A stretch of 10,507 bases of DNA from an uncultured Alistipes sp. (GTDB lineage: Bacteria > Bacteroidota > Bacteroidia > Bacteroidales > Rikenellaceae), in assembly GCA_947173915.1 (NCBI GenBank), contig CAMWGZ010000026.1, positions 1 through 10,507 of the forward strand. The letters run 5' to 3'. Positions 3,160-10,507 of this stretch are shown piece by piece. Each line of letters opens with the position of its first letter. Within the stretch, counting starts at the first letter, position 1. A program made the translations under genes and the position numbers. The notes beneath the pieces are model-generated. The model made no database searches, was not told where the DNA came from, and was given only the letters and a program-made list of their open reading frames with translations.

Positions 3160-4745
3160 TGACCCCCGAACCCGATTACACGCACCGCAGCCGTACGGCT
3201 GCGGTGGCGCTTGTGGCCGCACTGATCCTCCTGAGCTTCGTCCCGCCGCAGACCGTCGGCGGGATCCGTCTCAAGCGGGCCAACATCCTCTCGGAGCTGA
3301 TCCGCTTCGAAGAGGAGGCCGTAGAGGCGGAGGAGCCGCTCCTCGACGCGATCGACGAGGAGGAGTTCCGGATCGACCTCCAGCAGGTCGCCCGGCTGGT
3401 CGCCGACACCGCACCCCGGGAGGCCCCCGCGACCTACGAATGGACGCTCGACGGGCCGGCGGCGGCAACGACTCCCCCCGCAGCGGGGCAGAGCGACACG
3501 ACGCGGAGGCTGCCGCAACTGGTCCCCATCGAGGATTTCGACACCACCGGCCGCTTCGCAGCCTTCTGCCGCAAGTTGCAGCGGGGCGACTCGCTCGTGC
3601 GCATCGCCGTGATGGGCGACTCGTTCATCGAAGGCGACATTCTCACTTCGGACCTGCGCGAACAGCTGCAGCTCCGCTACGGCGGCGGCGGTGCCGGATT
3701 CGCGCCGGCGGCCTCGCCCCTGACCGACTTCCGCCGCACGATCCGCACGACCTCGAAGGGCTGGAACAGCTACAACGTCATGCAGCGCCGCACCACCCCC
3801 GAAGCGCTGGCCGACAGCTACTGCGTCTCGGGCTGGGTCTGCCAGCCGGCCGACGGGGCATCGACCCGCTGGGAGGGAACCTCCGAGCGGGCCTGCCTGG
3901 AGCAGTGCAACACCGCACGCATCCTCTTCCTGAGCCGCTCGGACAGCCGCATCGAAGTGACGGTCAATGACACGGCGAGCCGTATCTTCGAGATCGAGGG
4001 CTCGCCCCTGATGCGCCAGATCGCCGTGCGGGGCACCGTCCGCTCGCTGGAGTTCTCGGTGCTCTCGGGAGCCGGGGGCGTGGTGGGTTACGGAGCGCTG
4101 TTCGAGTCGTCGCCGGGCGTGGCGGTCGATAACTACTCGATCCGCAGCAACAACGGCCAGGCCATGTTCCGCACCTCGCCCGCACTCAACGCCCAGGCCG
4201 ACCGGATGCTCGGCTACGACCTGGTAATCCTCCAGTACGGACTCAACATCCTCCAGCCCGACCTCCGCAACTACGCACGCTACGGCGAGCAGATCGAGAA
4301 GATGATCGCCTACGTCCGCCACTGCTTTCCCCGAGCCGCGGTGCTGGTTATGAGCGTCAGCGACCGCAGCATCAAGGAGGAGGATCGGTTCGTGCCGATG
4401 GCCTCCGCACCGTTCATGGTCGAGGCCCAGCGCGCTGCGGCCGAAGCCTCCGGAGCCGCCTTCTGGAACACCTACCGGGCCATGCAGTCGCTCGGCGGCA
4501 TGGCGCGCTTCGTCGCCGAGGGGTGGGCCGGCAAGGACTACACCCACATCAACTTCGCGGGCGGCCGCCGCATCGCCTGGGGGCTTTGCGACGCGATCGA
4601 CGACGCGGTCCGCCGCCATCCGCTGTCCGTCCGGGTCGCCCATGCCAACATCGCAGACAGCGCCCGCATCACGCCGCTCGAAGAGGCGCTGATCCGCTCC
4701 GCACGGCCGGTCGGCCGCAACCTGCGCAACCACCCCGAGCGATGA
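3159..4745 (+). CDS. Exported SGNH/GDSL-family protein, probable partner of the MBOAT acyltransferase
   Basis: This 528-residue protein has an N-terminal hydrophobic segment (about 13-30) that should anchor or export it to the periplasm. An acidic stretch (46-70) and an Ala/Thr/Pro-rich linker (about 83-116) follow. The SGNH blocks are visible: VMGDSFIEGD with nucleophile S155 (block I), G333 in SNNGQ (block II), GLN at 361-363 in LQYGLN (block III), and D460/H463 in KDYTHINFAGG (block V). Blocks I and II are about 180 residues apart, far more than in a minimal SGNH domain, implying an inserted domain at about 200-325. The ATG at 3159 overlaps the previous stop by one base, and the gene overlaps the MBOAT gene by four (ATGA). 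By analogy with AlgI/AlgJ-X and PatA/PatB pairs it probably transfers or removes acetyl groups on an envelope polymer. Whether it acts as transferase or esterase cannot be told. Confidence 0.87.
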   Translation: MTPEPDYTHRSRTAAVALVAALILLSFVPPQTVGGIRLKRANILSELIRFEEEAVEAEEPLLDAIDEEEFRIDLQQVARLVADTAPREAPATYEWTLDGPAAATTPPAAGQSDTTRRLPQLVPIEDFDTTGRFAAFCRKLQRGDSLVRIAVMGDSFIEGDILTSDLREQLQLRYGGGGAGFAPAASPLTDFRRTIRTTSKGWNSYNVMQRRTTPEALADSYCVSGWVCQPADGASTRWEGTSERACLEQCNTARILFLSRSDSRIEVTVNDTASRIFEIEGSPLMRQIAVRGTVRSLEFSVLSGAGGVVGYGALFESSPGVAVDNYSIRSNNGQAMFRTSPALNAQADRMLGYDLVILQYGLNILQPDLRNYARYGEQIEKMIAYVRHCFPRAAVLVMSVSDRSIKEEDRFVPMASAPFMVEAQRAAAEASGAAFWNTYRAMQSLGGMARFVAEGWAGKDYTHINFAGGRRIAWGLCDAIDDAVRRHPLSVRVAHANIADSARITPLEEALIRSARPVGRNLRNHPER

Positions 4746-8839: not shown

Positions 8840-9190
8840 ATGAAGCGCAGAGAGTGCATACGGACAGCCGTCGCCGGGGGCATGCTCCTGCTGGCCCTCG
8901 TCCTGCGACTGTGCGGGCTGCTGCCGCTGTGGGGGCTGTTTCTGGTCGCCGCTGCGGCGCTGGGCACGCTCTGGCTCGCCCTCGGCTACCGGGTGTGGCA
9001 CCGCCTGCGGGGCAAGGCGCAGCAGTGGTTCCTCTTTTGGAACTATGCGCTTCCCGTGCTGGCGGCACTCCCCACGCTGGCCCTCGTGCTGGACCGCGCA
9101 CCCCGGATCGACGAACGGCTGCTGGTCGCCACGCTGACCGGAGCCGTACTCGCCGCAATCTATTATCTGATATACCCTAAACCCAAAAAT
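8840..9190 (+). CDS. Small membrane reading frame continuous with tpiA; function unknown
   Basis: An ATG at 8840, 22 bases after the lysS stop, opens a frame of 117 codons with about four predicted membrane helices (near residues 10-28, 30-50, 67-85 and 96-113) joined by short basic loops such as HRLRGKAQQ. I do not recognise the family. The frame has no stop codon of its own. It runs through IYYLIYPKPKN directly into the tpiA start codon at 9191 and on to the tpiA stop at 9949, giving a possible 369-residue fusion. Stops exist just before tpiA in both other frames (TGA at 9168-9170, TAA at 9178-9180). A sequencing indel, or a natural frameshift that removed the original stop, is therefore possible. 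The hydrophobic pattern and codon use look like genuine coding sequence rather than an untranslated leader. Confidence 0.5.
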
Positions 9191-9949
<759 letters not shown>

Positions 9950-9984
9950 AACCGCGCAATATACGACGCGGACACTGTTACGTT

Positions 9985-10014
9985 ACGGCCGGAGGGGTTG
10001 CCTCCGGCCGTTTT
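9985..10014 (+). terminator. Intrinsic terminator after tpiA
   Basis: CGGCCGGAGG (9986-9995) pairs perfectly with CCTCCGGCCG (10001-10010) across a 5-base loop, and A9985-T10011 extends the stem. TTTTGCTT follows. This is a strong GC-rich Rho-independent terminator 36 bases after the tpiA stop. It separates tpiA from the tryptophan leader region. Confidence 0.88.
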
Positions 10015-10144
10015 GCTTCCGCCCTGCTCCGCCAGCCTCCGGTGCTGCGGCCGCTCCCCCTCCGCCCCTCTCCGACGGGATACGACCGACCAAGCAGCAC
10101 TGCTCCAGCCTCTGCCGAGAGCGATCACAGCCGATAAACAAGGC

Positions 10145-10164
10145 TGAATTAAGAAAATAATTCA
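10145..10164 (+). promoter_or_regulatory. Inverted repeat just upstream of the trp promoter, possible operator
   Basis: TGAATTA (10145-10151) and TAATTCA (10158-10164) form a perfect 7-6-7 inverted repeat ending 8 bases before the proposed -33 element. The position would suit a regulator-binding site or an UP-like element. The local sequence is AT-rich, so chance is a serious alternative. Confidence 0.25.
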
Positions 10165-10172
10165 AAGAATGA

Positions 10173-10202
10173 CTTGTATTTTGAAAAATTAAACTATATT
10201 TG
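10173..10202 (+). promoter_or_regulatory. Promoter of the trp leader transcript
   Basis: The -7 element TATATTTG (10195-10202), followed by C, fits the Bacteroidota consensus TAnnTTTG exactly. CTTG at 10173-10176 is a plausible -33 element with an 18-base spacer, slightly shorter than the usual 19-21. Transcription should start around 10208-10212, leaving a very short untranslated leader before the leader-peptide ATG at 10224. This is the best-supported promoter in the window. Confidence 0.72.
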
Positions 10203-10223
10203 CTTCCGCAAAAGAAAAATTCA

Positions 10224-10310
10224 ATGAAACGATTCTCTGCACGCAACTATTGGTGGTGGCGCTCCTTGTTCCCTCAGGCAAACAATGAGCGTGATTCCGC
10301 ACGTGTATGA
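10224..10310 (+). CDS. trpL: Tryptophan leader peptide (28 residues, three consecutive Trp)
   Basis: A short frame from the ATG at 10224 to the TGA at 10308-10310 encodes 28 residues beginning MKRFSARNYWWWRS. Three consecutive TGG codons (10251-10259) follow a Tyr codon at positions 9-12, a density of tryptophan not expected by chance. The frame begins about 15 bases after the predicted transcription start and has only an A-rich initiation region (AAAGAAAAATTCA), as is usual for Bacteroidota. Its role is as a sensor. When charged tRNA-Trp is scarce, the ribosome stalls on the TGG run and changes folding of the downstream RNA. The stall site directly precedes the left arm of the protector hairpin (10259-10270), the geometry required for attenuation. 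The peptide itself probably has no other function. Confidence 0.9.
   Translation: MKRFSARNYWWWRSLFPQANNERDSARV
10259..10292 (+). ncRNA. Protector hairpin (region 1:2) of the trp attenuator
   Basis: Bases 10259-10270 pair with 10281-10292 with one C-T mismatch (10265/10286) and one terminal G-U. They form a hairpin immediately after the Trp codons, and CC/GG at 10272-10273/10277-10278 can add to it inside the loop. This structure sequesters the strand needed for antitermination. A ribosome stalled on the TGG codons would cover its left arm and release 10277-10287. Confidence 0.65.
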
Positions 10311-10357
10311 GACAGTTCAGCGAATTACCCCTTTAGAAACAAAAAACGTTGTTTGCC
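10277..10357 (+). ncRNA. Antiterminator pairing (region 2:3) of the trp attenuator
   Basis: GGCAAACAATG (10277-10287) pairs with CGTTGTTTGCC (10347-10357) in 11 consecutive pairs, ten Watson-Crick and one G-U. The downstream partner is also most of the left arm of the terminator stem, so this fold and the terminator exclude each other. The repeat GCAAACAA appears both at 10278-10285 and in the right arm of the terminator (10363-10370), the sequence duplication expected of an attenuator. Confidence 0.82.
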
Positions 10358-10378
10358 GTGTCGCAAACAACGTTTTTT
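10341..10378 (+). terminator. Attenuator terminator (region 3:4) before trpB
   Basis: Bases 10341-10356 and 10363-10378 form a perfect 16-bp stem closed by a 6-base loop (CGTGTC). The stem ends in AAAAAA paired with TTTTTT, which also serves as the U-tract. It lies 30 bases after the leader-peptide stop and 49 bases before the trpB start codon. When tryptophanyl-tRNA is plentiful this hairpin should stop transcription before the structural gene. Confidence 0.88.
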
Positions 10379-10427
10379 CGTCTCCGGCATGGCAAGCGGC
10401 TTTACAGAACCATAAAAACAACTTGTC

Positions 10428-10507
10428 ATGAAAACGAAAAAAATTCTGCTCCCGGAGTCGCAGCTCCCCACCCAATGGTACAACATCGTCGGCGACATGC
10501 CCCACCG
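10428..10507 (+). CDS. trpB: Tryptophan synthase beta chain, TrpB2-like, N-terminal fragment
   Basis: Only 26 codons lie in the window. They read MKTKKILLPESQLPTQWYNI followed by VGDMPH, which I recognise as the N-terminus of the TrpB2-type (TrpB-like, PLP-dependent) beta chain. This family differs from the E. coli-type TrpB1. The enzyme joins indole and serine to make tryptophan in the cytosol. The assignment is reinforced by the tryptophan attenuator directly upstream. The catalytic lysine and PLP-binding loops are beyond the window. Whether further trp genes follow, or the gene stands alone and salvages indole, cannot be seen. The start is supported by the AT-rich initiation region (AAAAACAACTTGTC) and the family N-terminus. 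Confidence 0.88.
   Translation, partial: MKTKKILLPESQLPTQWYNIVGDMPH

Follow-up and report, generated by a model that had tools for sequence, protein, structure and literature searches.

Tryptophan attenuators described so far

In the trpL leader of Escherichia coli, the antiterminator pairs with the 5′ arm of the terminator, and the target is the trpEDCBA operon. Rfam holds the corresponding family as Trp_leader (RF00513), in which we know of no counterpart of the outer helix, P0, described below. To our knowledge, ribosome–RNA polymerase coupling of this kind has been little studied in Bacteroidota. For this phylum, a tryptophan leader with a UGG run has been described as Bacteroid-trp (RF01692; Weinberg et al, 2010; PMC2864571), leader-peptide-like small ORFs have been reported in Bacteroides generally (PMC7366714), and there are clues for leader-peptide attenuation before amino acid operons of Flavobacterium (PMC9723704). 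Tryptophan pathway variants in gut genomes include TrpAB alone, and the excerpts of the respective paper mention no TrpB2-only class among these variants (PMC9026213). Among the listed titles and abstract openings of open-licence papers, we found no report of a trpB2 attenuator.

The DNA stretch analyzed here (the window) is the whole contig G000:C26 (10,507 bases) from the 1.36-Mb assembly of an uncultured Alistipes sp., which is 85% complete. A preliminary description had proposed a ribosome-mediated tryptophan attenuator before trpB; our analysis supports this in part, since the reading was right in kind, as judged by conservation and covariation, and wrong in the target, which is most likely a TrpB2 gene, and in the family. 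Conservation and covariation strongly support the tryptophan attenuator reading, and the element very probably attenuates transcription through the ribosome, making expression of one gene, trpB2, depend on how much charged tRNA-Trp is available. The mechanism is textbook; the target, the helix layout, and the family are uncatalogued in Rfam. On balance, we lean toward the view that the element represents an uncatalogued family of tryptophan attenuators, dedicated to the indole-salvage gene trpB2 and present in Alistipes as well as Odoribacter, Butyricimonas, and Sanguibacteroides, in which a stalled ribosome would open P0 and the inner protector helix (1:2) together, and the antiterminator would use the opposite terminator arm from that used in a sister class before TrpB1. 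A textbook switch would then have moved from biosynthetic operons to a salvage pathway for a signalling molecule of the gut, within a genus that looks Trp-auxotrophic, providing a conserved, testable Bacteroidota case of ribosome position controlling RNA polymerase.

Organization of the locus

Between positions 10195 and 10430 of the forward strand, to which all features below belong, the window carries in order a promoter box, a 28-codon leader ORF with three consecutive Trp codons, an antiterminator, a terminator, and a gene start; the leader ORF, antiterminator, terminator, and gene start are located where the preliminary description had placed them. The promoter box TATATTTG (10195–10202) is of the Bacteroidota −7 type (TAnnTTTG), and 61 of 63 genus loci have such a box no more than 110 nt from their Trp run, compared to 150 of 3150 shuffles. 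The TTG at 10174–10176 is presumably a candidate for the −33 promoter element. A sigma-70 scan of 9950–10507 returned no promoter-like site; the same scan omits the terminator at 10341–10378, whose stem is mostly A-T.

Upstream of the promoter, a terminator-like hairpin, also called as a terminator-like site in a scan, is found at 9985–10011, 3′ of a triosephosphate isomerase gene (ORF 8840–9949; PF00121 TIM), and would insulate the leader from upstream transcription. In the isomerase ORF itself, the isomerase part (residues 121–364) is in frame with an N-terminal hydrophobic stretch of about 115 residues. An alignment spans both parts without a stop in six of 61 genus genomes besides the window's own (G200, G196, G012, G171, G031, and G002), and in most of the others it covers the isomerase part alone; a membrane-anchored isomerase or an internal start are both possible.

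The nearest relative found (G169; loci L109 and L253, the latter from Alistipes sp. SC0410_S4_8) has a near-identical leader and agrees with the window in gene order, the isomerase end being followed by the leader and trpB2. From leader to trpB2, the two DNAs are 87% identical over 301 bases, and the stretch between isomerase and leader matches in short pieces only.

The target gene

The gene downstream of the terminator is cut by the contig end, leaving its first 26 codons (10428–10507), which encode the start of a TrpB-like, PLP-dependent protein. These 26 residues match the start of the NF009057 TrpB-like model (E = 3.8e-4), and the nearest relative has a 461-aa open frame at the same position. 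Full-length proteins of relatives reach 543–637 bits with TIGR01415 (cut-off 518.85), and one of them passes both TIGR01415 and NF009057 and fails the classical TrpB cut-off. The gene product would be akin to the second TrpB type; what sets it apart is its position under a tryptophan attenuator, mostly without a TrpA or TrpB1 companion.

Across 180 genus genomes, TIGR01415 exceeds its cut-off in 65, TrpB1-like matches occur in two (G008 and G068), and TrpA exceeds its cut-off in one (G068), with weak matches in two more; indole-3-glycerol phosphate synthase (IGPS) is above cut-off in none of 37 genus genomes. Many of these assemblies are incomplete, and the control genomes all give matches. 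Of the 65 with TIGR01415 above cut-off, 63 showed no full match to TrpA or TrpB1 alongside it. G068 encodes both beside its TIGR01415 match, with TrpB1 and TrpA on one contig and TrpB1 preceded by its own WWW leader; G008, which is outside the 65, encodes TrpB1 only. No conserved gene neighbors of trpB2 were seen in 20 stretches, in which ten proteins were named. The TrpB2 protein of Alistipes sp. An66 (L209) is 100% identical to that of the same-genus genome G023.

Judged from these profile matches, the target appears to be a stand-alone TrpB2 and not an operon-borne trpB; TrpA is nearly absent from the genus, which seems unable to make tryptophan from scratch. Given the scarcity of TrpA and IGPS, the switch most likely governs indole salvage, which is the likely role of trpB2. 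Some archaeal TrpB2 enzymes, however, use O-phosphoserine, NCBIfam names the family only TrpB-like, and TIGR01415 is a hypothetical equivalog, as would suit a genuine switch whose TrpB2 handles another compound, or O-phosphoserine in another route. We consider such a function unlikely, because control by Trp codons points to tryptophan as the product and because the TrpB2 of Thermococcus converts indole to tryptophan without TrpA (as cited in PMC11085991). The TrpAB reaction, in turn, would not be available to the genus with TrpA above cut-off in a single genome.

Genes resembling tryptophanase match in 130 of the 180 genus genomes. None passes TIGR02617, and the three examples scanned, including the fragment from the window's genome, all pass the NF009709 tryptophanase cut-off. 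Full-length matches to TIGR02617 form two groups, near 500–560 and near 345–375 bits (L160 409–1857, L159 491–1870, L158 926–1753), and the lower-scoring kind is found in several genomes that carry the trpB2 attenuator. If the indole salvage reading is true, the trpB2 attenuator would set the direction of tryptophan–indole exchange in tryptophanase carriers.

Conservation of the leader peptide

The window's leader ORF (MKRFSARNYWWWRSLFPQANNERDSARV, 10224–10310) encodes the 28 residues first proposed, with the TGG run at 10251–10259 as the presumed stall site. Among 74 TrpB2 loci with 330 nt or more of upstream sequence (L025_G013, which has 68 nt, and the contig-end genomes G163 and G203 are left aside), we found a short ATG ORF with a W.?W motif in 69, namely in 63 of 64 from the genus (window included) and in six of ten from other families. 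By comparison, such ORFs appeared in 129 of 7400 dinucleotide shuffles (1.7%) and in none of the 74 reverse strands. The one exception in the genus is L107 (G088), where trpB2 has no Trp-rich leader. Conservation of the TGG codons in relatives was borne out as well, as TGGTGG is invariant in 58 aligned sequences.

Sampling the order more widely (83 of the 84 loci over the cut-off, G267 being missing) revealed a Trp-rich ORF at 34 of 83 TrpB2 loci, compared to 35 of 2490 shuffles and one of 83 reverse strands. The named loci with such an ORF include two from Odoribacter, three from Butyricimonas, and a Sanguibacteroides record; the Parabacteroides records among those listed have no Trp-rich leader ORF before TrpB2. 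In other families (L012, L013, L015, L026, L142, L156, L163, L180, and L182), the Trp codons upstream of trpB2 are interleaved, not tandem, mostly with Arg codons (WRWRWW, WRWR, WCWR, WRWRWQW).

A short leader with Trp codons, in a genus with tryptophanase-like genes, also recalls TnaC, in which case the leader peptide would arrest the ribosome on free tryptophan and not for lack of charged tRNA-Trp. TnaC-type arrest requires set residues, but the peptide sequence flanking the Trp run varies widely among loci. Moreover, two to four Trp codons in a row are the hallmark of control by codon starvation, and the target enzyme makes tryptophan instead of degrading it, so that we regard a TnaC-like arrest as very unlikely.

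Antiterminator, terminator, and inner protector

The window's leader RNA folds at −55.4 kcal/mol, compared to −39.3 (sd 4.0) for dinucleotide shuffles, none of 200 being as good. Its antiterminator pairs strand 2 (GGCAAACAATG, 10277–10287), the 3′ part of which also lies within the protector, with strand 3 (10347–10357) through 11 pairs, one of them G-U. This 2:3 pairing is worth −17.0 kcal/mol, which none of 200 shuffles of the upstream strand matched. Strand 3 is shared with the terminator hairpin (10341–10356/10363–10378), where its partner is strand 4; six T at 10373–10378 double as an A-T extension of the terminator stem.

A script examining each locus alone called a terminator in 66 of 67 loci. 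Out of 200 shuffles, the pairing of strand 2 with the 5′ arm of the terminator beats 190 or more in 52 of the 67 loci and 198 or more in 37. It is not better than 190 of 200 in 15 loci, mostly of other families; those failing include L012, L015, L018, and L026 from other families and L016, L085, L105, and L113 from the genus. Among the 69 leader loci, no terminator was found in L013 and L117 by one script and in L078 by another, leaving 66, from which alignment A1 (58 genus sequences) was obtained by removing five other-family loci, L113_G111, and two near-identical rows.

In this alignment, 91.1% of the cells of the 2:3 helix (11 pairs) are paired, and 49 double-change cells compare with 13.5 in shuffles (0 of 500 reaching this number). 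When the partner strand is slid along the alignment, pairing falls to 31–55%. Pair types are not more numerous than in shuffles (18 vs 17.1; 193 of 500). For the terminator helix 3:4 (14 pairs), 94.5% of cells are paired, with 125 double-change cells vs 40.1 in shuffles (0 of 500). The proposal that the competing pairings share one strand was thereby confirmed, both helices covarying; RNAalifold, applied to the same alignment, predicts the terminator only. The reading frame of strand 2 was compared across 67 loci, including five from other families: it is frame 0 in 22, frame 2 in 35, and frame 1 in three; in three others the strand lies 3′ of the stop codon, and in four no motif is present. 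Since the strand is read in three frames or lies beyond the stop in different species, it is conserved as RNA and not as peptide.

The inner protector (1:2), which the preliminary description had drawn as 10259–10270/10281–10292 with strand 1 at 10259–10270, folds in the window, but in a register that the genus does not conserve. In the window's register, 60.3% of genus cells are paired compared to 60.7% in shuffles, i.e., without covariation, and swapping 1:2 partners between species makes no difference. Free pairing of 1:2 does beat strand-1 shuffles (−11.4 vs −7.7 kcal/mol), and pairing energy is what speaks for this helix. Of the three helices first proposed, the antiterminator and the terminator thus display compensatory changes in relatives and the protector does not.

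An outer helix, P0

Covariation is instead seen in a fourth helix. In P0, the partner of a strand just 5′ of the Trp codons (10234–10243, core 10238–10243) is a motif beyond the 3′ end of strand 2 (10302–10312, core 10302–10307) that overlaps the leader stop codon. P0 encloses the protector from outside, making the latter the inner part of a longer hairpin. Examples from different loci are CATACA:TGTATG, ATGCACA:TGTGCAT, GTTTTATGCA:TGTATGAAAC, and TACTTTGCAG:CTGTGAAGTA, as well as CACATAACTCT:AGAGTTATGTG from a wider search, and 46 distinct helices occur among 60 loci. In each of two 30-locus clades, none of 400 partner swaps reached the observed score (16.9 vs 14.4, sd 0.5, and 14.3 vs 11.5, sd 0.5). 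The best helix has just four or five pairs in seven of the 60 loci, and the best one found in the nearest relative (L109) differs from that of the window.

The 5′ strand of P0 in the window sits 8–17 nt upstream of the first Trp codon, a distance that the upstream footprint of a stalled ribosome would reach. One ribosome would therefore mask the 5′ strands of both helices. We propose that, when tryptophan is sufficient or the leader carries no ribosome, the hairpin formed by P0 and 1:2 would sequester strand 2, so that strand 3 would pair with strand 4 and RNA polymerase would stop near 10378. When charged tRNA-Trp is short, a ribosome would stall on the three UGG codons, covering the 5′ strand of P0 as well as the first part of strand 1, which adjoins the codons on their 3′ side; strand 2, freed from the protector, would pair with strand 3, the terminator could not form, and trpB2 would be transcribed, its product then presumably making tryptophan from indole.

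Conservation of P0 and 2:3 as RNA structure would equally suit an RNA-binding protein or a direct tryptophan riboswitch acting on the alternative hairpins, with the leader ORF being incidental. This is hard to reconcile, however, with a Trp-rich ORF that is kept in nearly all genus loci and recurs in other families, where both the peptides and the sequences differ considerably, and we judge it highly improbable. Intergenic terminators are common, but a plain terminator next to a chance Trp-rich ORF, without any regulation, is scarcely credible in view of leader conservation against shuffles and the covariation of 2:3, 3:4, and P0.

A single target in the genus

R1, a covariance model of the element in which only 3:4 is drawn as structure, provides an RNA model for leaders that Bacteroid-trp misses. 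Searching 180 genus genomes with it under stricter filters, which miss weak matches, we obtained 64 full-length copies at E ≤ 1.6e-18, followed by a gap to 1e-10. By coordinates, 63 of the 64 adjoin trpB2 on the same contig; the remaining copy (G163) lies at a contig end, and the trpB2 of this genome is cut at the end of another contig. As 58 of the 64 copies helped build the model, the informative result is that no strong copy was found elsewhere. In the 65 trpB2 genomes, G088 has no leader, that of G013 is cut by the contig, and that of G111 reaches only 21 bits. The weak matches among those listed (E of 1e-10 and worse) mostly span the terminator end, and some are full length at 23 bits or less, one of them being the trpB2 leader of G111 itself. 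A multi-gene regulon is unsupported, with no strong full-length R1 copy before another gene in the 180 genomes.

Comparison with Rfam families

The preliminary description had considered membership in Bacteroid-trp, which our searches contradict. RF01692 (cut-off 49 bits) has no match in the window at E ≤ 10, none in 37 same-genus genomes at E ≤ 0.001, none in 14 loci at E ≤ 1, and none in 20 loci at E ≤ 10. Its three matches in relatives from the order sit before TrpB1 by coordinates, and the TrpB1 leaders of G008 and G068 score 41.9 and 33.9 bits, under the cut-off. The two types share a Bacteroidota tryptophan leader with a UGG run, and the RF01692 consensus has an outer stem just 5′ of the Trp run (AUACAUAU:AUGUAUAU), at the place of the window's P0. 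R1 scores five TrpB1-type leaders at 21–40 bits; with E. coli trpL also reaching 17.7 bits, kinship of the window's element with RF01692 is possible.

The two types differ in the terminator arm used by the antiterminator. For strand 2 of TrpB1-type leaders (GUCGUGAG, for example), the best partner is the terminator loop together with the 3′ arm (CUCACGAC) in five of five loci, weakly so in L041; for strand 2 of TrpB2-type leaders, window included, it is the 5′ arm in 59 of 61, a comparison that rests on these five TrpB1 loci and on an arm choice measured here, outside the definition used by Rfam. The exceptions are one tie (L113) and one opposite case (L017), with one further locus having no terminator call. 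In the TrpB1-type leaders L041, L042, L043, L118, and L119, the partner of the terminator loop and 3′ arm is a copy located upstream. The RF01692 model, which has 131 positions and ends in the 5′ arm of the terminator, does not draw such a loop/3′-arm antiterminator.

Searches with RF00513 (gathering score 41 bits) list no match in the window. Four of 20 genus loci reach 20–30 bits (best 29.6), compared to 93.1 for E. coli trpL itself. The genus loci share with this family the Trp codons and an antiterminator directed against the 5′ arm of the terminator, and differ from it in having the single gene trpB2 as target instead of trpEDCBA. The window's element thus resembles E. coli trpL in arm choice, yet is a member of neither Rfam family. 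Weak matches to other families in the window (mir-1255, mir-3051, 23S-methyl, ctRNA, and others) are far below their gathering scores and were rejected; most of them fall on the terminator palindrome or its flank. Finally, His_leader (cut-off 49 bits) matches 3′ of trpB2 at two loci, with 36.1 bits at 3163–3286 of L020 and 31.2 bits at 972–1101 of L019, possibly representing a second kind of attenuator in the genus.
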